Shown here in pieces: positions 8,220-40,126 of a stretch of 64,000 nucleotides of DNA. This DNA is from Clostridiales bacterium (GTDB lineage Bacteria; Bacillota; Desulfotomaculia; Desulfotomaculales; VENG01): positions 1-64,000 of the forward strand of contig JADQBQ010000043.1 in assembly GCA_016278505.1 (NCBI GenBank). The letters run 5' to 3'. The notes below the pieces were generated by a model. That model made no database searches and was not told where the DNA came from. It was given only the letters and a program-made list of their open reading frames with translations. The stretch's first letter is position 1. Each line of letters begins with the position of its first letter. The position numbers and the translations under genes were made by a program.

Positions 8220-8325
8220 GGTGAGTAGCACGGGGGAGTTTCACCCCCAGGACAGCGATAGGTAAGGGTCTTCCACGCATATTACCGATAAAGTAATATC
8301 GTTCGGAAGCCCTTTTCCCCCGCTT

Positions 8326-8362
8326 CACACCGGACGTGAGACTTTAACCTCATCCGGCGCTC
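8326..8362 (-). ncRNA. Group II intron domain V
   Basis: On the minus strand GAGCGCCGGATGAGG, then the AAAGT segment, then CTCACGTCCGGTGTG. This matches the conserved domain V hairpin form (GAGCCGGAUG...GAAAGU...CACGUCCGGUU). It lies just after the maturase stop codon and ~105 nt before the intron 3' end, leaving room for domain VI. Confidence 0.8.
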
Positions 8363-10174: not shown

Positions 10175-10691
10175 TCCCAGAATTCGATGACCCTGCCCCT
10201 TCGCTCCACAACCATTACAGTTGCTTCCTCACTACTACGAGCAGGTCCGCCCCTTATCATGTCATTCGTATTCACTCTTATGCTTCAAACATTTGAGTTT
10301 TCCGTTGGCATCCATGATAAGGTTCTCACGTTCCCTATGAAAGCCTAAATCATGTTCTCGCCGCATTTACGCCGATTGCCGCCTGGTCAGTAAACAGGTT
10401 TTTTCCAGGCTTATCCCTGGGCCCAATACCTGCCCGGTTTTGACAATTCTAAATACCGTATTACGACGCGTCATCCGCGGTTCGCTTTCGCTCGACTCCA
10501 TGATTTACACTTGACTGTTTCGTACAGCCTTTTTCTTCAACGCTCAGCACCACAGATTTTGACTGCAGCACCTTGAAGTAGTTTGACACCCCTTCCTGTA
10601 AAGCGATGCCGAGGGGCCCACCCTCATCTTTCATAGAGCATGACATGAAATTTTAGTGTTGCCACCATCCTTTCATGTCTTCGTGACACAC

Positions 10692-22306: not shown

Positions 22307-22422
22307 GCTCTTATCGAGAGTGGTGGAGGGAAAGGCCCTATGAAACCCGGCAACCCGTTCGGTATTATAACCGGACTTGGTGCTAAATCCTTCAGGGCAA
22401 GTTTGTCCTGGCAGATGAGAGG
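22307..22422 (+). ncRNA. SAM-I (S-box) riboswitch
   Basis: Canonical S-box sequence elements in order: CTCTTATCGAGAGTGG, GGAGGGA, GGCCCTATGAAACCC, GGCAACC, GGTGCTAAATCC, then the 3' closing strand GATGAGAG. The intrinsic terminator at 22436 gives the off state when SAM is bound, so metY-metA are repressed by SAM. Confidence 0.95.
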
Positions 22423-27482: not shown

Positions 27483-28345
27483 CTAATTGCCGTTAACCTG
27501 GGTTGCCAGATCGAGTATTCGGGCCATGGTTTGTTCCCTTCTGGTGTTGATGGCCTCGAAATCCATGTAAGGTACATAGTATTTTTCCATTTCGTCGTGT
27601 TCCTGTTTGGCCTGGGAAATGAACCGGATGGCCTGTTCCATGCTCAGGCGGTACAATTCCCGGGCTACTTTCTTCTCAGCCAGGAACTTTTCATTGATAA
27701 CTGCGTTTACGAACTCTGTGGTGTCAACAACCTTATCTCCGTTTAAGGGTTTAAAGTAGTGAGGTTCCACGGCGTTGATCACCGCTATCCCGATGTCCGG
27801 TATCACCAGGTGGTCTACCAGTGCGGGATCCAGAGCGCAGTGGTATGCTTCTACGTGATGTCCTCTCATTAATGCTGCTTCCATGAGTCGGCGCACCAAT
27901 GTATTTTTGCCGGTGCCGTCATCGCCGTTAATGATGTAGCGTGTTTCTACATCAGCAACTATGCTGTCCAGGTGGCTTTCCGGCCCTTTAGGGGTAATGG
28001 CGGTGGCGAATAAATGCCTGGCTTTGGGGCTGTCAGTCTGACGGGGCTTACCTTCAAATATTTGGTGAGTGAGTTCCAAAACCTTTTTATCCAGAGCCCC
28101 CACATCTAGGGCGCCTGTATCCCGGTAATAGGACTTTACTTCGTCCAGGAATATTTTTGCCGCACCCAGGTAGGAATAGGCGCGCTTGAAAAGTCTTCCC
28201 ACTTCCTTTTTAATGGCCAAAATTTCTTTTTTGTTGGCTCTTAGACCTTCTTCGTTCCAGTGGTCGCCTAAATGAATTATTACGTCCACGGCGCCCGGGT
28301 TTTTGGGATCTACTACGTGAAGGGTCGTTCTGGTAGCCAAACATG
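27483..28345 (-). pseudogene. Tandem P-loop NTPase, 5'-truncated copy
   Basis: Nearly identical over ~285 residues to the intact gene at 32681-33799, from HVVDPKNPGAVDV to the C-terminus, including the second P-loop-like GDDGTGKNT. The N-terminal NTPase half with the first Walker A is missing, and the sequence degrades around 28325-28345. Only a few differences (for example YVPYMD versus YVPFMD) separate the copies, so duplication or gene conversion was recent. Translation from an in-frame start at 28367 is possible but unlikely to be meaningful. Confidence 0.8.
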
Positions 28346-28491
28346 GTGAAAACAAAACTAAAAACAAAATAATAACGTTTATAGGTCAAATTGCCTTAAC
28401 CCCTGGCAATTAAGGCTTGATAGAGCTTGCAGTAGTAGCAAATTAGTAGTAAAATAGTCTAAAAAATTTATGCGAGGAAGTTGATGATAAT

Positions 28492-32680: not shown

Positions 32681-33799
32681 TTAGTTACCGTTTACTTGGG
32701 CTGCCAGATCCAGTATGTGATCCATGGTTTGTTCTCTTCGGATATTGATGGCCTCGAAATCCATGAAAGGCACGTAGTATTTTTCCATTTCGTCGTGTTC
32801 CTGTTTGGCCTGGGAAATGAACCGGATGGCCTGTTCCATGCTCAGGCGGTACAATTCCCGGGCTACTTTCTTCTCAGCCAGGAACTTTTCATTGATAACT
32901 GCGTTTACGAACTCTGTGGTGTCAACAACCTTATCTCCGTTTAAGGGTTTAAAGTAGTGAGGTTCCACGGCGTTGATCACCGCTATCCCGATGTCCGGTA
33001 TCACCAGGTGGTCTACCAGTGCGGGATCCAGAGCGCAGTGGTATGCTTCTACGTGATGTCCTCTCATTAATGCTGCTTCCATGAGTCGGCGCACCAATGT
33101 ATTTTTGCCGGTGCCGTCATCGCCGTTAATGATGTAGCGTGTTTCTACATCAGCAACTATGCTGTCCAGGTGGCTTTCCGGCCCTTTAGGGGTAATGGCG
33201 GTGGCGAATAAATGCCTGGCTTTGGGGCTGTCAGTCTGACGGGGCTTACCTTCAAATATTTGGTGAGTGAGTTCCAAAACCTTTTTATCCAGAGCCCCCA
33301 CATCTAGGGCGCCTGTATCCCGGTAATAGGACTTTACTTCGTCCAGGAATATTTTTGCCGCACCCAGGTAGGAATAGGCGCGCTTGAAAAGTCTCCCCAC
33401 TTCCTTGTTGGTGGCCAAAATTTCTTTTTTGTTGGCTCTTAAACCTTCTTCGTTCCAGTGATCGCCTAGATGTATTATTACGTCCACGGCGCCCGGGTTT
33501 TTGGGATCTACCACGTGTGGTGCTGTTCCGTCCAGCATGGCTACCCTGATGGACGGTATTACGATGCCGTCCAATGAGTCGTTATCTGAGGAGCAGCAGT
33601 GGAATTCCACATCATAGCCTTTTTCCAGCATGGTCTCGCCTATTTTACGCATAAATGTGGACTTACCCACCCCCGGTCCGCCTTTGATGACAAAAATACG
33701 GGTGGCATCGGGTTCGATGATATAATCATAAAATGAGTAAAAGCCTTGGCTTGTGTTCCCGCCTGGAAATACTTTTTTAAATTTTCCTTTGCTGTTCAA
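32681..33799 (-). CDS. Tandem P-loop NTPase (PRK06851-like)
   Basis: 372 aa. The start is TTG 33799 (LNSKGKFKKVFPGG) with AAGGAGGGT upstream. The first half has Walker A GGPGVGKST, the second half the altered GDDGTGKNT, so two NTPase halves are fused. HVVDPKNPGAVDV and LDGTAPH separate them. No signal peptide. The family is widespread in clostridia and unassigned in function. A nearly identical 5'-truncated copy is 4.3 kb to the left. Divergent from the ANTAR regulator gene. Confidence 0.8.
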   Translation of the reverse strand: MNSKGKFKKVFPGGNTSQGFYSFYDYIIEPDATRIFVIKGGPGVGKSTFMRKIGETMLEKGYDVEFHCCSSDNDSLDGIVIPSIRVAMLDGTAPHVVDPKNPGAVDVIIHLGDHWNEEGLRANKKEILATNKEVGRLFKRAYSYLGAAKIFLDEVKSYYRDTGALDVGALDKKVLELTHQIFEGKPRQTDSPKARHLFATAITPKGPESHLDSIVADVETRYIINGDDGTGKNTLVRRLMEAALMRGHHVEAYHCALDPALVDHLVIPDIGIAVINAVEPHYFKPLNGDKVVDTTEFVNAVINEKFLAEKKVARELYRLSMEQAIRFISQAKQEHDEMEKYYVPFMDFEAINIRREQTMDHILDLAAQVNGN

Positions 33800-34014
33800 A
33801 AATTTACCCTCCTTAATCCAACTATACCAATTATCGAGAGACAAATGAATGCACTTTACGCCTATGCCGGCACCGTTGGCGGCATTAACAGACATTGTAC
33901 ACTATTATGTTTATGCATTTATGGCCTCGGATTGCGACAGAATTAACCCTGTCTATTATTTTTTTTTCCACCGTGTTAAAATATTACAAGAATAGACGCT
34001 TTAGAGGTGTCCGA

Positions 34015-34593
34015 ATGAATGGTGCCAGGATTGTAATTGCAGATAAGGAAAAAGGCTTCAGGAAGCAGTTGCGGGAAATACTCAAGCAGGCGGGTTACCT
34101 GGTGGTCGGTGAGGCGGAAGATGTAAAGACTACTTTGCACCTGGTTTCCCAGACAGAGCCTGAATTACTGGTACTGGATGTCGATTTGCCGGGTTTCGGA
34201 GAAATGCAATTAATAAGGGTGCTGGAGGAGCGGCGGGTGGTGTCGGTGGTTTTAACCTTTCCCTATGATCACCGGCTAATAGTAGATATGGCCGCTGCCG
34301 GGGGGGTTTTCGGTTTGCTCACCAAACCGGTACAGGAAACCTCGGTTTTCCCTATACTTGAATCGGCCCTGGTAAATTTCAGGCGGGTAAAGCTTCTGGA
34401 AAAGGAAACCGGAAAGCTGCGCCAGGAACTGGAAACACGGAAAGTGGTAGAGCGCGCCAAGGGATTATTGATGGAAAAGAAGGGCATGAATGAGGCGGAC
34501 GCTTTCCGATACTTGCAAAAGCTTAGTATGGATCGTTGTGTAAGTATGATGAAGGTGGCCAAACAAACTGTTATAACCTTGCAAAACCGGTAA
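34015..34593 (+). CDS. ANTAR-domain response regulator 1
   Basis: 192 aa, ATG 34015 behind GAGGTG. An N-terminal receiver with phosphoacceptor D55 (LLVLDVDLPG) and conserved Lys in LLTKPVQ, a coiled-coil linker (KLLEKETGKLRQELETRK), and a C-terminal ANTAR helix bundle (VVERAKGLLMEKKGMNEADAF). ANTAR proteins bind paired hexaloop hairpins in leader RNA and prevent termination. The glnA paralogue directly downstream has such a leader (34680-34757), and so does the second glnA. The partner kinase is not in the window. Confidence 0.9.
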   Translation: MNGARIVIADKEKGFRKQLREILKQAGYLVVGEAEDVKTTLHLVSQTEPELLVLDVDLPGFGEMQLIRVLEERRVVSVVLTFPYDHRLIVDMAAAGGVFGLLTKPVQETSVFPILESALVNFRRVKLLEKETGKLRQELETRKVVERAKGLLMEKKGMNEADAFRYLQKLSMDRCVSMMKVAKQTVITLQNR

Positions 34594-34639
34594 CTAATAT
34601 CCTCCATATATTGTATGTTGTATAATAAAAAAATAGGTA

Positions 34640-34667
34640 TTGCTTTTATAAATTTAAGTGCTATACT
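34640..34667 (+). promoter_or_regulatory. Promoter of the glnA-paralogue leader
   Basis: TTGCTT (34640-34645), 16-nt spacer, TATACT (34662-34667). Transcription would start about 34674, just before the leader hairpins. Confidence 0.5.
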
Positions 34668-34679
34668 TATAGATAAATA

Positions 34680-34757
34680 TTATGCAAATAAAAGGGCAAT
34701 GGCGTCCTTTCCACGAGTTAATGTTAATCGCATTAACCCCTGGAAGGACGCTTTTTA
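34680..34757 (+). ncRNA. Candidate ANTAR-responsive antiterminator leader 1
   Basis: Hairpin P2 AAGGGC-AATGGC-GTCCTT (34692-34709) has a hexaloop with A at 1 and G at 4, the ANTAR RNA signature. It overlaps the 5' arm of a terminator formed by GCGTCCTTTCCA (34702-) and TGGAAGGACGC (34741-34751) with a T tail, so the two are mutually exclusive. A small stem TTAT-GCAA-ATAA (34680-34691) lies where P1 should be but lacks a clear A1/G4 loop. Confidence 0.65.
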
Positions 34758-34788
34758 TTTTGTTGGAAATTATTGGAGGAATGACAAG

Positions 34789-36117
34789 GTGAAAGCTTTT
34801 ACAAAGCAAGATGTAATAGAAAAAGCACGTGAATACGACGTAAAGTTTATACGCCTTCAATTTACCAATATACTGGGGTCTTTAAAAAATATCGCCATTA
34901 CCATTGAGGAGCTGGAAAGAGCACTGAACGGCCAAATCAGTTTTGACAGTTCGGTTATAGAGGGATCCACAGGCTTTAGGGAATCGTCTGTTTACCTTTA
35001 CCCGGACCCCAGCACCTTTGTTATTTTTCCCTGGCGACCGCGGGAAGGGGCGGTGGCCCGGCTTATATGTGACGTGGCCGCTCCGGACGGGTCTCCATTT
35101 GGAGGGTGCTCTCGCTTAGCACTGCGTAATGTGATTAATGAATACTCTAATGCAGGATTGGACCTGCAGGTGGGGGCAGAGGTAGAATTTTTCCTATTTC
35201 ATACTGATGAGAGGGGTAAGCCCACCGTGGTTACGCATGACCAGGCCGGGTACTGTGACATGACCCCGGTAGATATGGGGGAGAATGCCAGGCGTGACAT
35301 GGTGCTTACGCTGCAGGAAATGGGTTTTGATGTTTCCTCGTCCCACCATGAAATAGCTCCAGGACAGCACGAGATTTTCCTGAAAGAAGATAATGCTCTA
35401 ACTATGGCGGACAGTATTGCAACTTTTAAATTTGTGGTCCGTACTATTGCCCAGAGACATGGGCTGCATGCTACATTTATGCCCAAGCCCCTTGCTGATC
35501 ACAATGGTTCGGGGATGCACTTGCATTATTCCCTCTGGGAAGAGACGGAAAATATCTTTCATGACCCACAGGCGCATAAAGGGCACAGTGAAATTCTTTA
35601 CAACTATACCGGGGGCATTTTATACCATGCCAGGGCTATAACGGCCATAACCAACCCGCTGATTAATTCATATAAACGGCTGGCCCTGAATGATCTGGCA
35701 CCTGTGCTGGCCAGCTGGTCCGCGGAAAATAGGAGCACCATGCTGCGGGTTGAAAATCAGCCTGGCAAAGGTCCCAGTGTAGTACTAAGAAGCCCGGACC
35801 CGGCCTCAAACCCCTACCTAGCACTGGCGGTAACTATGAAGGCCGGCCTGGACGGGGTGGAAAAGAAAATGTCCTGTCCCGATGCGGTATCCGGAGATTC
35901 CAGCGAATCAGTAGATATCCGTAGACTGAGAAGGGAAATGGGGCTGCCACCCAGGCTGGAAGAAGCGTTAAAAGCGCTAAATACAGATGACGTCATAGGC
36001 GAGGCACTGGGCGGACACATCCGGCAGCGCTTCATGAAAACAAAGGAAAACGAGCTGGAACGGTTTCACCTGCAGGTGCACCAGTGGGAGATTGAGGAGT
36101 ATTTGAAAAGTTATTAA
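34789..36117 (+). CDS. Divergent glutamine synthetase paralogue
   Basis: 442 aa, GTG 34789 with TTGGAGGA. Clear GlnA-I fold: ISFDSSVIEG, GAEVEFFLF, SSSHHEIAPGQHEI, GSGMHLHYSL. But GYEAP of canonical GS reads NDLAP (catalytic flap E327 in E. coli numbering is L303 here), and [13 protein letters not shown] reads KGPSVVLRSPD (R355 to Ser, metal ligand E357 to Val332). The canonical paralogue at 38795 keeps all of these. It may use another substrate, work poorly, or be regulatory. It lies in the ANTAR-controlled nitrogen locus. Confidence 0.85.
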   Translation: MKAFTKQDVIEKAREYDVKFIRLQFTNILGSLKNIAITIEELERALNGQISFDSSVIEGSTGFRESSVYLYPDPSTFVIFPWRPREGAVARLICDVAAPDGSPFGGCSRLALRNVINEYSNAGLDLQVGAEVEFFLFHTDERGKPTVVTHDQAGYCDMTPVDMGENARRDMVLTLQEMGFDVSSSHHEIAPGQHEIFLKEDNALTMADSIATFKFVVRTIAQRHGLHATFMPKPLADHNGSGMHLHYSLWEETENIFHDPQAHKGHSEILYNYTGGILYHARAITAITNPLINSYKRLALNDLAPVLASWSAENRSTMLRVENQPGKGPSVVLRSPDPASNPYLALAVTMKAGLDGVEKKMSCPDAVSGDSSESVDIRRLRREMGLPPRLEEALKALNTDDVIGEALGGHIRQRFMKTKENELERFHLQVHQWEIEEYLKSY

Positions 36118-36278: not shown

Positions 36279-37859
36279 ATGAGTTTTAGTAATGGAATTA
36301 ATGCCAGTGCAGCAACCAGAACCAAACTGCGTACCGGTGACAGCAAATGTCCTTTCAGCGGTATGTGTGTAACCTGCTTGGACGGATGTCCGGGCCTGTG
36401 TGAAATCGGAAAATCTGCCATCAGGGGTAAAGAAGTGCTTTACCCACAGCCCTTTGGGAAGACTACTTCCGCTTCGGAAAAAGATTATCCTGTCGATTAT
36501 TCACATTTTAACATAATGGGTACAGCAGTGGGTGCTCAAGGGATCGAAGCTGATCCTGATAAGGCTATTTTCCCGGCTGTCAATCTTGAGACCGCCTTTG
36601 GTTCCAAGGGTGACCTCAAGTTGGACCTGCCCATCGTTGTAGCCGGTATGGGTTCTACCAACGTGGCTGCTAATAACTGGGATCACCTGGCTGCAGGTGC
36701 TGCCATTTCCGGTGCAGGCATAGTAATTGGTGAGAACGTCAGTGCCATGGATCCCAATGTGGAAATTAAAGATGGCCGTGTAGTACATTCCCCAAATCTG
36801 GAGCGCAGGGTAAAGGATTTCCAGGATTGGTCAAACGGTAAAGGTTTTATTGCGGTACAGGCTAACGTAGAAGATACAAAGCTGGGTGTGCAGGAATATG
36901 CTTTGGATAAACTGGGCGTTGAGGCCGTGGAAATCAAATGGGGCCAGGGCGCCAAGGATATTGGCGGCGAGGTGAAGCTGGATACCCTGGAAAGGGCACA
37001 GCAGCTGAAGAGCCGTGGCTATATAGTGATGCCGGATCCAGATGATGCAAAGGTGCAGGAAGCTTTCAAGGCCGGATCATTTACAGAATTTGAACGTCAT
37101 TCCCGTATTGGCATGGTAGAGCAGGAAAGCTTTATGGCTCGCGTGGAAGCACTGCGTAATGCCGGAGCCAAATATGTATTCTTAAAGACCGGTGCTTACA
37201 GGCCTGCTGACCTGGCCCGGGCCGTAAAATTTGCTTCCGATGCCAAGCTGGATCTTTTGACCGTTGACGGTGCCGGTGGTGGAACCGGTATGAGCCCCTG
37301 GCGGATGATGAACGAGTGGGGAGTTCCCACCGTATACCTGCAGGCAATGCTCGTGAAGTACTGCGACAAGTTGGCAGCAAAAGGTGCTTACGTACCTCCT
37401 GTGGCCATTGCCGGCGGATTTACCCTGGAAGACCACATGTACAAAGGTCTGGCCATCGGTGCCCCTTATACAAAAGCTATTGGTATGGCCCGTTCCGCCC
37501 TTAGTGCTGCTATGGTTGGTAAGACCGTAGGAGAGGCAATTAAGAACGGTAAAATTCCCGCCGAATACAAGAAGTACGGTGAGACTATGGATCAAATCTT
37601 TATCGGTGCTACCGAACTTAAGGAGAAACTTGGGGCCGAAGCGTTTAACCGCCTGCCGGCAGGTGCTATCGGCGTACACACCTACTTTGAGCGTCTGGCT
37701 CAAGGACTGCGTCAATTCATGTGTGGATCCCGTAAATTCGCACTGGAATACCTCAACAGGAATGATGTGGTTGCACTAACTAAAGACGCTGCCGAGATTA
37801 CCGGTATTCAGTATATAATGGATGCAGATGCTGACGAGGTTGAACAAATTTTGAGTTAA
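36279..37859 (+). CDS. FMN-binding glutamate-synthase-family protein
   Basis: 526 aa, ATG 36279 with AGGAGG. The N-terminus has a cysteine cluster (CPFSGMCVTCLDGCPGLC) likely to hold an Fe-S centre. The remainder matches the FMN/Fe-S synthase domain of GltB (DLPIVVAGMGSTN, IKWGQGAKDIGGEV, LLTVDGAGGGTGMSPW, IAGGFTLEDHMYKGLAIGA). No amidotransferase domain, as in archaeal-type stand-alone synthase subunits. Flanked by glnA genes and ANTAR regulators, so a role in ammonium assimilation is likely. Whether it makes glutamate alone is unknown. Confidence 0.85.
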   Translation: MSFSNGINASAATRTKLRTGDSKCPFSGMCVTCLDGCPGLCEIGKSAIRGKEVLYPQPFGKTTSASEKDYPVDYSHFNIMGTAVGAQGIEADPDKAIFPAVNLETAFGSKGDLKLDLPIVVAGMGSTNVAANNWDHLAAGAAISGAGIVIGENVSAMDPNVEIKDGRVVHSPNLERRVKDFQDWSNGKGFIAVQANVEDTKLGVQEYALDKLGVEAVEIKWGQGAKDIGGEVKLDTLERAQQLKSRGYIVMPDPDDAKVQEAFKAGSFTEFERHSRIGMVEQESFMARVEALRNAGAKYVFLKTGAYRPADLARAVKFASDAKLDLLTVDGAGGGTGMSPWRMMNEWGVPTVYLQAMLVKYCDKLAAKGAYVPPVAIAGGFTLEDHMYKGLAIGAPYTKAIGMARSALSAAMVGKTVGEAIKNGKIPAEYKKYGETMDQIFIGATELKEKLGAEAFNRLPAGAIGVHTYFERLAQGLRQFMCGSRKFALEYLNRNDVVALTKDAAEITGIQYIMDADADEVEQILS

Positions 37860-37988: not shown

Positions 37989-38576
37989 GTGGGGAACCAG
38001 AGAGTCGTACTGGCAGATAATGACAGTGCCTCGAGAAAGAATATTAAGGCTCAGCTCTCACGATTCGATAACTGGGTCGTGGGTGAGGCTGGTGACGGTA
38101 TAACTGCGCTGAAGCTGGTCAGGAGCAGGCAACCGGACCTGTTGGTAACTAAAGCATTTCTCCCGGGTATGGATGGTGTGCAGGTGGCTAAAATAATGCG
38201 GCAGGATAATCTGGCACCCGTGGTTTTAGTAGGGTCGTCCTTCCAGCAAAGTGTGCTGGAAAAGGCAAGAGATGCAGGTGTTTTCGCTTTCCTGCAAAGC
38301 CCTGTTGAGGATTCGTCCCTGCTCACTGCGGTGGAGTTGGCAGCTGCTAATTACCGGGAAATGATGCGGCTGGAAGGAAAAATACAAGACCTGGAAAGAA
38401 AGCTGCAAACCCGGAAAGTTGTAGAGAAGGCTAAAGGTATACTAATGGAAACAAAGAGTGTGTCAGAGGCAGAGGCATTCAGCATGATGCAAAAACAGAG
38501 TATGAATGAGAGAAAAGGGATGCAGGCCATCGCTGAGGCTATAATAATGGCCTATAATCTAATGCAAGACATATGA
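37989..38576 (+). CDS. ANTAR-domain regulator 2, receiver lacks the phosphoacceptor
   Basis: 195 aa, GTG 37989 with AAAGGAGG. Same architecture as the regulator at 34015, but the phosphoacceptor position is Lys (K55 in LLVTKAFLPGMDG), and the conserved Lys of the fifth strand is Ser (FLQSPVED). The acidic pair near the N-terminus is kept. The ANTAR part (VVEKAKGILMETKSVSEAEAF) looks intact. It should not be switched by ordinary phosphorylation. It may dimerise with regulator 1, sense a ligand or be constitutive. It precedes the second glnA leader. Confidence 0.9.
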   Translation: MGNQRVVLADNDSASRKNIKAQLSRFDNWVVGEAGDGITALKLVRSRQPDLLVTKAFLPGMDGVQVAKIMRQDNLAPVVLVGSSFQQSVLEKARDAGVFAFLQSPVEDSSLLTAVELAAANYREMMRLEGKIQDLERKLQTRKVVEKAKGILMETKSVSEAEAFSMMQKQSMNERKGMQAIAEAIIMAYNLMQDI

Positions 38577-38794: not shown

Positions 38795-40126
38795 TTGTCC
38801 AAACTTACCCACGACGATGTGCGTAATTTGGCCCGGGAACTGGGAGTGAAATTTATACGGCTCCAGTTTACCGACATTTTCGGCGTATTAAAGAATGTAT
38901 CAATTACAGTAGAGCAGCTGGATAAGGCACTTGATGGTGAATTAATGTTTGACGGCTCTTCCATCGAAGGTTTTGTGCGTATCGAAGAATCGGATATGTA
39001 CCTGCGCCCGGACCCCTCTACATTTGTGGTTTTTCCCTGGAAACCCAGGGAGGGGGCAGTAGCCAGGCTTATTTGCGACATCTACGATTCCGAAGGACAG
39101 CGCTTTATAGGTGACCCCCGCAATGTGTTGCGGCGCGCTATTGACGATGCCGCGGAATTGGGCTACAGCATGAATGTAGGTCCCGAGGCGGAGTTTTTCC
39201 TGTTTCACGTGGACGGGGACGGTAGGCCCACTACAATAACCCATGATCAGGCCGGTTACTTTGATTTAACACCGGTGGATTTGGGTGAAAACGCCCGCCG
39301 TGATATGGTGATCACGTTGGAGCAGATGGGCTTTGAGATTGAAGCCTCGCATCACGAAGTGGCGCCGGGGCAGCATGAGATTGACTTTAAGTATTCGGAC
39401 GCGCTGGATATAGCGGATAAAATAGTTACCTTTAAATTTGTAGTGCGCACCATTGCACAGCGGCACGGGCTGCATGCAACCTTTATGCCCAAGCCAATAT
39501 TCGGTATTGCCGGGTCGGGGATGCACCTAAACCAGTCACTGATGAAAAATGGAAGCAATGCTTTTTATGATCCCGAGGGGGATAACAAGCTCAGTAAGGA
39601 CTGCCAACACTATATTGGAGGCCTTATGGCTCATGCGGCTGCCATTACGGCGGTGGCCAACCCTAATATTAACTCGTATAAGCGCCTGGTATCGGGCTAC
39701 GAGGCTCCAGTGTATATGGCATGGTCTTACAGAAACCGCAGTCCTTTGGTGCGCGTGCCTGCAAAGCGCGGGCCTTCAACTAGAGTTGAGCTGAGAAGCC
39801 CGGATCCTTCCTGTAACCCGTATCTGGCTCTGGCAGCCTGCTTGCGGGCCGGCATGGATGGTATCAAAAACAAAATTGAGCCCCCGCCGCCCTGTGATCG
39901 TAATATATATGAACTAACAGCCGGTGAGCGCAAGGAATTGGGTATTGGTACCCTGCCTGAAAGCTTGAACGAAGCTATGTTGGAACTTTCCACCGACGAT
40001 GTAATTAAAGACACTCTTGGTAAGCATGTATTGCAGCGTTTCATGGAAGCCAAAAAAATAGAGTGGGACCGTTACCGCACCCAGGTTCATCCTTGGGAGC
40101 TTGAAGAATACCTGAGCAAATTTTAA
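38795..40126 (+). CDS. glnA: Glutamine synthetase type I
   Basis: 443 aa from TTG 38795 (GAGAAGGG upstream). All active-site blocks are present: [51 protein letters not shown], and [19 protein letters not shown] with the Arg/Glu pair missing from the paralogue. Makes glutamine from glutamate, ammonium and ATP. Length and absence of the adenylylation Tyr loop fit the GSI-alpha group of Firmicutes, normally controlled by feedback. Expression here probably also depends on ANTAR antitermination. Confidence 0.95.

Follow-up and report, generated by a model that had tools for sequence, protein, structure and literature searches.

Glutamine synthetase (GS) active sites lie between subunits, and the n2 metal holds the ATP phosphates for transfer. 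In Bacillus subtilis GS regulates TnrA/GlnR, and lengsin (PDB 2j9i), a vertebrate class I GS-family protein, is said to have no GS activity. Control of an ANTAR protein by a ligand-binding protein is known from the AmiC-AmiR pair. A further pair, the NasS-NasT complex, dissociates on nitrate (PMC3795266), and an A1/G4 hexaloop is a described feature of the RNA targets of ANTAR proteins (PMC8164766). Organic-amine ligases are described as conserving the ligands of ATP, glutamate and Mn but not all catalytic residues of GS; Asp50 is among those lost, as is a glutamate of the flap to which the text gives the number 357 (PMC11335346).

The window analysed here is the whole stretch of 64,000 nucleotides at positions 1 to 64,000 of contig JADQBQ010000043.1. 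It carries a GS paralogue in a cluster with the following features:

34015..34593, forward strand: RR-ANTAR regulator 1 (receiver and ANTAR domains, PF00072 and PF03861), probable start ATG at 34015
34640..34667, forward strand: promoter-like TTGCTT-16-TATACT, recognized by eye in aligned leaders, where TTGA.../TATAAT-like hexamers recur
34691..34710, forward strand: hairpin AAAGGGC-[AAUGGC]-GUCCUUU with an A1/G4 hexaloop (ANTAR-target type), conserved in orthologous leaders
34702..34757, forward strand: terminator-like stem GCGTCCTTTCCA...TGGAAGGACGC plus T-run, from RNA folding, position conserved in aligned leaders
34789..36117, forward strand: GS-I paralogue without E327, S53 and E357 (n2 metal site), from PF00120, PF03951, TIGR00653 and residue tables
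36279..37859, forward strand: GOGAT-like FMN-domain protein with an N-terminal Cys cluster CPFSGMCVTCLDGCPGLC (PF01645, 50.1 bits)
37989..38576, forward strand: RR-ANTAR regulator 2 with a degenerate receiver (D57 to K, K109 to S; PF03861 and PF00072)
38795..40126, forward strand: canonical GlnA of the same cluster (TIGR00653, 587 bits; E327 and E357 present, Ala at N264)

Elsewhere in the window, two nearly identical ATPase-like ORFs (27483-28367 and 32681-33895, reverse strand) stand on either side of a segment with a Fic-type gene, a GGDEF/HD ORF and a short serine recombinase, an arrangement that points to duplication or insertion in the recent past. The window also holds pieces of group II introns and a SAM riboswitch (8252-8362 and 10509-10625, reverse strand; 22308-22421, forward strand).

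The paralogue gene is intact, as an earlier note on this DNA had stated, and runs from a GTG start at 34789 to a stop at 36117 (442 amino acids). By both Pfam GS domains its product is a member of the glutamine synthetase family, with scores above the gathering cut-offs (PF00120, 376.7 bits against 24; PF03951, 86.9 bits against 33.4). The cut-off of the NCBIfam GlnA equivalog TIGR00653 was missed marginally (428.5 bits against 429.15), the downstream GlnA scoring 587.1 bits with the same model. The NCBIfam cut-offs for GSIII (307.2 vs 469.6 bits) and glutamylputrescine synthetase (271.7 vs 650 bits) were not reached. The source genome holds five GS genes. An AlphaFold model of the paralogue, built with 12 sequences, had a mean pLDDT of 78.6 and a pTM of 0.85, but residues 147-161 and the flap (291-305) fell below 50 and the active site is not judgeable from the model.

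Catalytic residues were compared in Salmonella numbering, by alignment to the GlnA of the locus (55% identity, no gaps through the catalytic motifs) and to E. coli GlnA, whose sequence aligned cleanly. The substitutions listed in the earlier note were borne out by both gap-free alignments: the flap motif GYEAP is NDLAP (E327 to L303) and STRVELR is GPSVVLR (R355 to S330, E357 to V332). The ammonium site carries another change that the note had not mentioned, S53 to V56; thus the flap E327 and the S53 of functional GlnA are Leu and Val in the window. The remaining metal ligands (E129, E131, E212, E220, H269) are present, as had been claimed, together with D50, N264, R321, R339, R344 and R359. 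The flap also has Asp at 326, which might keep part of the flap charge and partly stand in for E327. An alignment error behind the missing residues was ruled out by the absence of gaps and by the same losses in orthologues. The second glnA, described earlier as canonical, is indeed so at E327 and E357. At N264, a position that binds glutamate, its residue is Ala; the same holds for 51 of the 106 other GSs of these loci, about half of the GlnAs of the order, and Asn-type and Ala-type GlnAs often stand side by side.

A class-level search of 113 genomes identified ∼50 orthologues of the paralogue, at roughly 57-69% identity, and the gene is present on contigs that bear the names Pelotomaculum and Desulfallas. 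A DNA pattern search across the phylum added only two carriers outside the order; its pattern demands Leu at 327 and the sample was sparse, so that absence is not measurable from it. No description of this paralogue was found in the open-access literature. In a Pelotomaculum transcriptome four glnA genes were downregulated in coculture, and the text does not single out the paralogue (PMC6046458).

Residues were counted in 55 unique proteins encoded directly upstream of a GOGAT-like gene. E327 is found in none of them, and E357 is absent from 49. Four of the six proteins that keep E357 are sister proteins of the Thermincola/f51 type, in which the rest of the metal sites is complete too; the other two are heavily eroded and have lost E129, E131, E212 and E220. 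With these six left out, a complete n2 site (E129/H269/E357) occurs in 0 of the 49 remaining clade members, and n1 is kept in 41. By comparison, n1 and n2 are both kept in all 99 canonical GlnAs of the neighbourhood, a set obtained after removal of seven atypical or partial sequences. The loss of E327 is not universal: a further orthologue at a contig end in a 57% complete genome (L079) retains Glu at 327, with Val at 357. Nor is the R355 to Ser substitution a family feature, since 42 of the 55 proteins have Arg at this position and the Ser in the window is atypical. Conservation of the reported substitutions among orthologues therefore holds for E327 and E357 and fails for R355.

Supply of the lost charges from neighbouring positions, raised in the earlier note as a point against its claim, is conceivable for one of them only. 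An acid at 326 is present in 27/49 orthologues, the window included, and might help; E357 has not been replaced from nearby, because no orthologue has an acid at 354-358. Other positions are retained throughout the clade. D50, G265, R321, R339 and R359 are near-invariant, and a Cys directly after Y179 occurs in 54/55 paralogues, even in the most eroded members, where 100 of the 106 other GSs have Phe. A second candidate for a clade-specific Cys was rejected, as 43/106 other GSs share it.

The earlier note had argued that loss of E327 and E357 should abolish normal glutamine formation. This is likely to be correct, judging from the residues, but by a narrower route. Loss of E327 alone is no proof of inactivity, since it is replaced while E357 is kept in E. 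coli PuuA (Tyr; sequence from the MG1655 record), in a GSIII protein of locus L132 (Trp) and in PDB 11zs (GTFAP). What is decisive is that the n2 metal site has been lost (E357 is gone, and E129 or H269 erodes as well), by which the formation of gamma-glutamyl phosphate should stop. The suggestion that the protein is kept for "another reaction or as a subunit that modulates GS" fares better in its second half: n2 loss argues against another reaction and for a regulatory subunit.

Another reaction could be that of a gamma-glutamyl ligase for an organic amine, of the PuuA/GoaS/GSIII kind, in which a hydrophobic pocket would have taken the place of the ammonium site. PuuA combines loss of E327 with S53 to Val as the paralogue does, GSIII and 11zs also lack E327, and in the Thermincola-type sisters n2 is complete (E129, H269, E357), as it should be in an enzyme. 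However, such a ligase would replace E327 and keep all metal ligands, as PuuA does, E357 included; in the window E327 is Leu and E357 is Val, and no clade member has a complete n2 site. NpaA1 likewise keeps its ATP, glutamate and Mn ligands (PMC11335346). Our alignment shows PuuA to have lost residue 327 and kept 357, and the D50/E357 pattern of the paralogue clade is the reverse of that described for amine ligases in PMC11335346. The first 98 residues of the paralogue align to GlnA without gaps and apparently without the extra loop of GoaS (the "15th motif" of PMC11335346), and D50, lost in GoaS, is kept. We consider an amine ligase improbable. In L132 (1562-6447) the GSIII gene (TIGR03105, 624 bits) lies near a gene whose product is 63% identical to the GOGAT-like protein, and the region resembles a GmaS/N-methylglutamate-type cluster.

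In a maximum likelihood tree, from a quick search without bootstrap and with long-branch outgroups, the 41 paralogues used form one clade (SH-aLRT 99) apart from all canonical GlnAs. The E357-retaining Thermincola-type proteins are its sister, with support of 100 for the joint clade. The parsimonious order of events would be loss of S53 and E327 first, followed by loss of E357 and erosion of E129/H269. On this reconstruction the S53/E327 loss predates the split from the Thermincola-lineage sister, and the n2 loss (E357, often with E129 or H269) probably came later, within this order.

The dN/dS of the paralogue is about 0.05-0.15 in close pairs (simple Nei-Gojobori estimates), comparable with the values of the neighbouring GlnA and GOGAT-like genes or a few-fold higher, and the gene is therefore under purifying selection and maintained. 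Together with the orthologues and the single-clade tree, this upholds the proposal that it is kept for something other than glutamine synthesis. It is nevertheless dispensable, because it is missing between intact neighbours in two genomes (G030 and G031), reduced to a short fragment in G100 and frameshifted in G088, where an assembly error is possible. These losses, and a sequence drift faster than that of GlnA, are what might be expected of a functionless gene decaying in the operon, but reading frames that are long and intact in about 50 genomes, residues fixed specifically in this clade and the low dN/dS make plain decay very improbable.

The gene order of the locus is conserved: RR-ANTAR 1, the GS paralogue, the GOGAT-like flavoprotein, RR-ANTAR 2 and one or two canonical GlnAs, often with IlvH. 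In the 58 loci that carry the paralogue, which include related genomes and are not independent, RR-ANTAR 1 adjoins the paralogue in 56 (54 on the same strand, 2 divergent) and the GOGAT-like gene lies directly downstream of it in 54. The four exceptions to the latter are two contig ends, one case of overlapping reading frames and one separate second copy, a stand-alone gene in genome G035 (L071, 6018-7394) without ANTAR or GOGAT-like neighbours. Loci with a GOGAT-like gene but no paralogue mostly lack RR-ANTAR 1 as well, as judged within the fetched flanks and with several loci from one genus. RR-ANTAR 1 is present where the paralogue is gone or broken in four loci (L113, L114, L136 and L143), two of which hold paralogue remnants. 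Overall, the presence of the paralogue follows that of RR-ANTAR 1 more closely than that of the GOGAT-like gene.

This distribution bears on the idea that the paralogue is a subunit of the GOGAT-like flavoprotein, where it might, for instance, bind glutamine/glutamate or handle ammonia in place of the missing amidotransferase part. The GOGAT-like protein matches no NCBIfam family and has no PDB relative by sequence, its PF01645 match being weak. Adjacency of the two genes persists even where a 43%-identical variant occupies the same place, as it does in some genomes, and the relative in L132 also lies near a GSIII gene. Against such a partnership, the GOGAT-like protein is highly conserved, with identities of about 72-86% in much of the order, and is retained where the paralogue has been lost, so the paralogue is not needed for it; a separate, stronger glutamate synthase match is also present elsewhere in the source genome. 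We regard this explanation as quite improbable, and like the amine ligase it is less likely than assembly with GlnA.

Assembly with canonical GlnA, as a hetero-dodecamer or mixed rings that lower or tune GlnA activity, is the main rival, though an unlikely one. A dead subunit would spoil the sites it shares with its neighbours. The paralogue has the same fold as the GlnA of its locus and the 55% identity given above, its N-terminal beta-grasp, which completes the neighbour's site, is present (the consensus residue is identical at 69% of positions 1-98), D50 is nearly invariant, and in most genomes both genes belong to the same operon; in the window GlnA starts 2.7 kb downstream of the paralogue. 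On the other side, C-terminal residues 430-442 are poorly modelled and the paralogue drifts faster than its supposed partner.

The leader of the paralogue gene offers a different connection. A fold of 34594-34800 gave z = -4.56, and the 3' arm of the hexaloop hairpin overlaps the 5' arm of the terminator. The hairpin occurs in 49/55 orthologous leaders, against 2.8 expected from shuffles, nearly always as GGGC-AANGNN-GUCC. Covariation is seen at the fifth pair of its stem (paired in 48/50, against a mean of 36 in shuffles; value reached by 0/500 shuffles), and the inner four pairs hardly vary. The ANTAR-type leader announced in the earlier note is thus real as one conserved A1/G4 hairpin plus terminator, but not as the classical two-hairpin motif: a strict search recovered the latter in 1/56 paralogue leaders, with 2.5 expected and hence no excess. 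The same search found it in 40/108 other glnA leaders (L007-L144; 3.0 expected), which makes antitermination of glnA look common in the order. Before the paralogue there may not be room for a complete first hairpin, given how close upstream the promoter-like hexamers, placed by eye, lie. No Rfam family matched the leader at gathering score, and a consensus promoter and terminator scan of 34560-34800 reported nothing, its loop limit of 3-8 being too short for this stem.

We tentatively favour the view, without giving it even chances, that the paralogue is a catalytically disabled GS kept by selection in a nitrogen operon as a ligand-binding regulator, perhaps as a partner of the RR-ANTAR protein. 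It appears to be maintained by an order of anaerobic Bacillota comprising Pelotomaculum, Desulfallas and relatives. After n2 loss it retains the fold of GS, the n1 ligands for the most part, and R321, R339 and R359, the arginines for substrate and phosphate; it would still bind glutamate, glutamine or nucleotide and would not transfer phosphate from ATP. Most likely it would control the neighbouring RR-ANTAR protein in response to a ligand, and that protein would free the operon leader from its terminator, much as nitrate-binding NasS acts on the RR-ANTAR protein NasT. A more specific form, in which the pseudo-GS is a nitrogen sensor of RNA antitermination that binds glutamine/glutamate and releases or holds the RR-ANTAR protein, which in turn would open the glnA leader as well as that of its own operon, is possible but rather doubtful.

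The regulatory reading draws on the single clade, the n2 loss, purifying selection, the Cys after Y179, adjacency to RR-ANTAR 1 and the leader hairpin. The phospho-acceptor set of the receiver is not consistently conserved in either ANTAR family, and this unevenness fits control by a partner protein. Weighing against it are the loci in which RR-ANTAR 1 persists without the paralogue, at least for a while, the missing two-hairpin target, the related genomes behind the counts and the Asp at 326. In addition, RR-ANTAR 1 of the window retains D57 and K109 and could be phosphorylated.

Conversion of a central enzyme family into a probable regulator is unusual, and here a GS without n2 is kept across many families of an order. 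The paralogue is a candidate for what conveys the signal sensed by response-regulator-type ANTAR proteins beside glnA, and its E357-retaining sisters provide a natural before-and-after comparison for the stepwise loss of catalysis. If all genes of this kind are annotated as glnA, the number of functional GSs in these anaerobes is overestimated.

Among known systems, type I GlnA (GSI-alpha of Bacillota) shares fold, length, n1 ligands and substrate arginines with the paralogue, which differs in lacking E327, S53 and E357 and in falling just below the TIGR00653 cut-off. PuuA, NpaA1/GoaS and GSIII/GmaS share the replacement of E327 (by a bulky or aromatic residue in the amine-ligase cases checked), and PuuA also the Val at S53. 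In these enzymes E357 and the metal ligands are retained (as seen in PuuA, for E357 also in the L132 protein, and according to PMC11335346 in NpaA1), whereas the paralogue has no n2 site, and GoaS loses the D50 that the paralogue keeps. Lengsin is reportedly likewise a GS-family protein kept for a non-catalytic role, but it is a eukaryotic lens protein outside any nitrogen operon and only remotely similar in sequence (E 1.2e-14). In B. subtilis a GS-family protein also conveys nitrogen status to gene expression, although there the active enzyme does so and acts on DNA-binding proteins. NasS is a transporter-type binding protein and the paralogue a GS relative with a putative ANTAR partner; as in NasS-NasT and AmiC-AmiR, a candidate ligand-binding protein is encoded beside an ANTAR regulator, and a target RNA precedes the operon.
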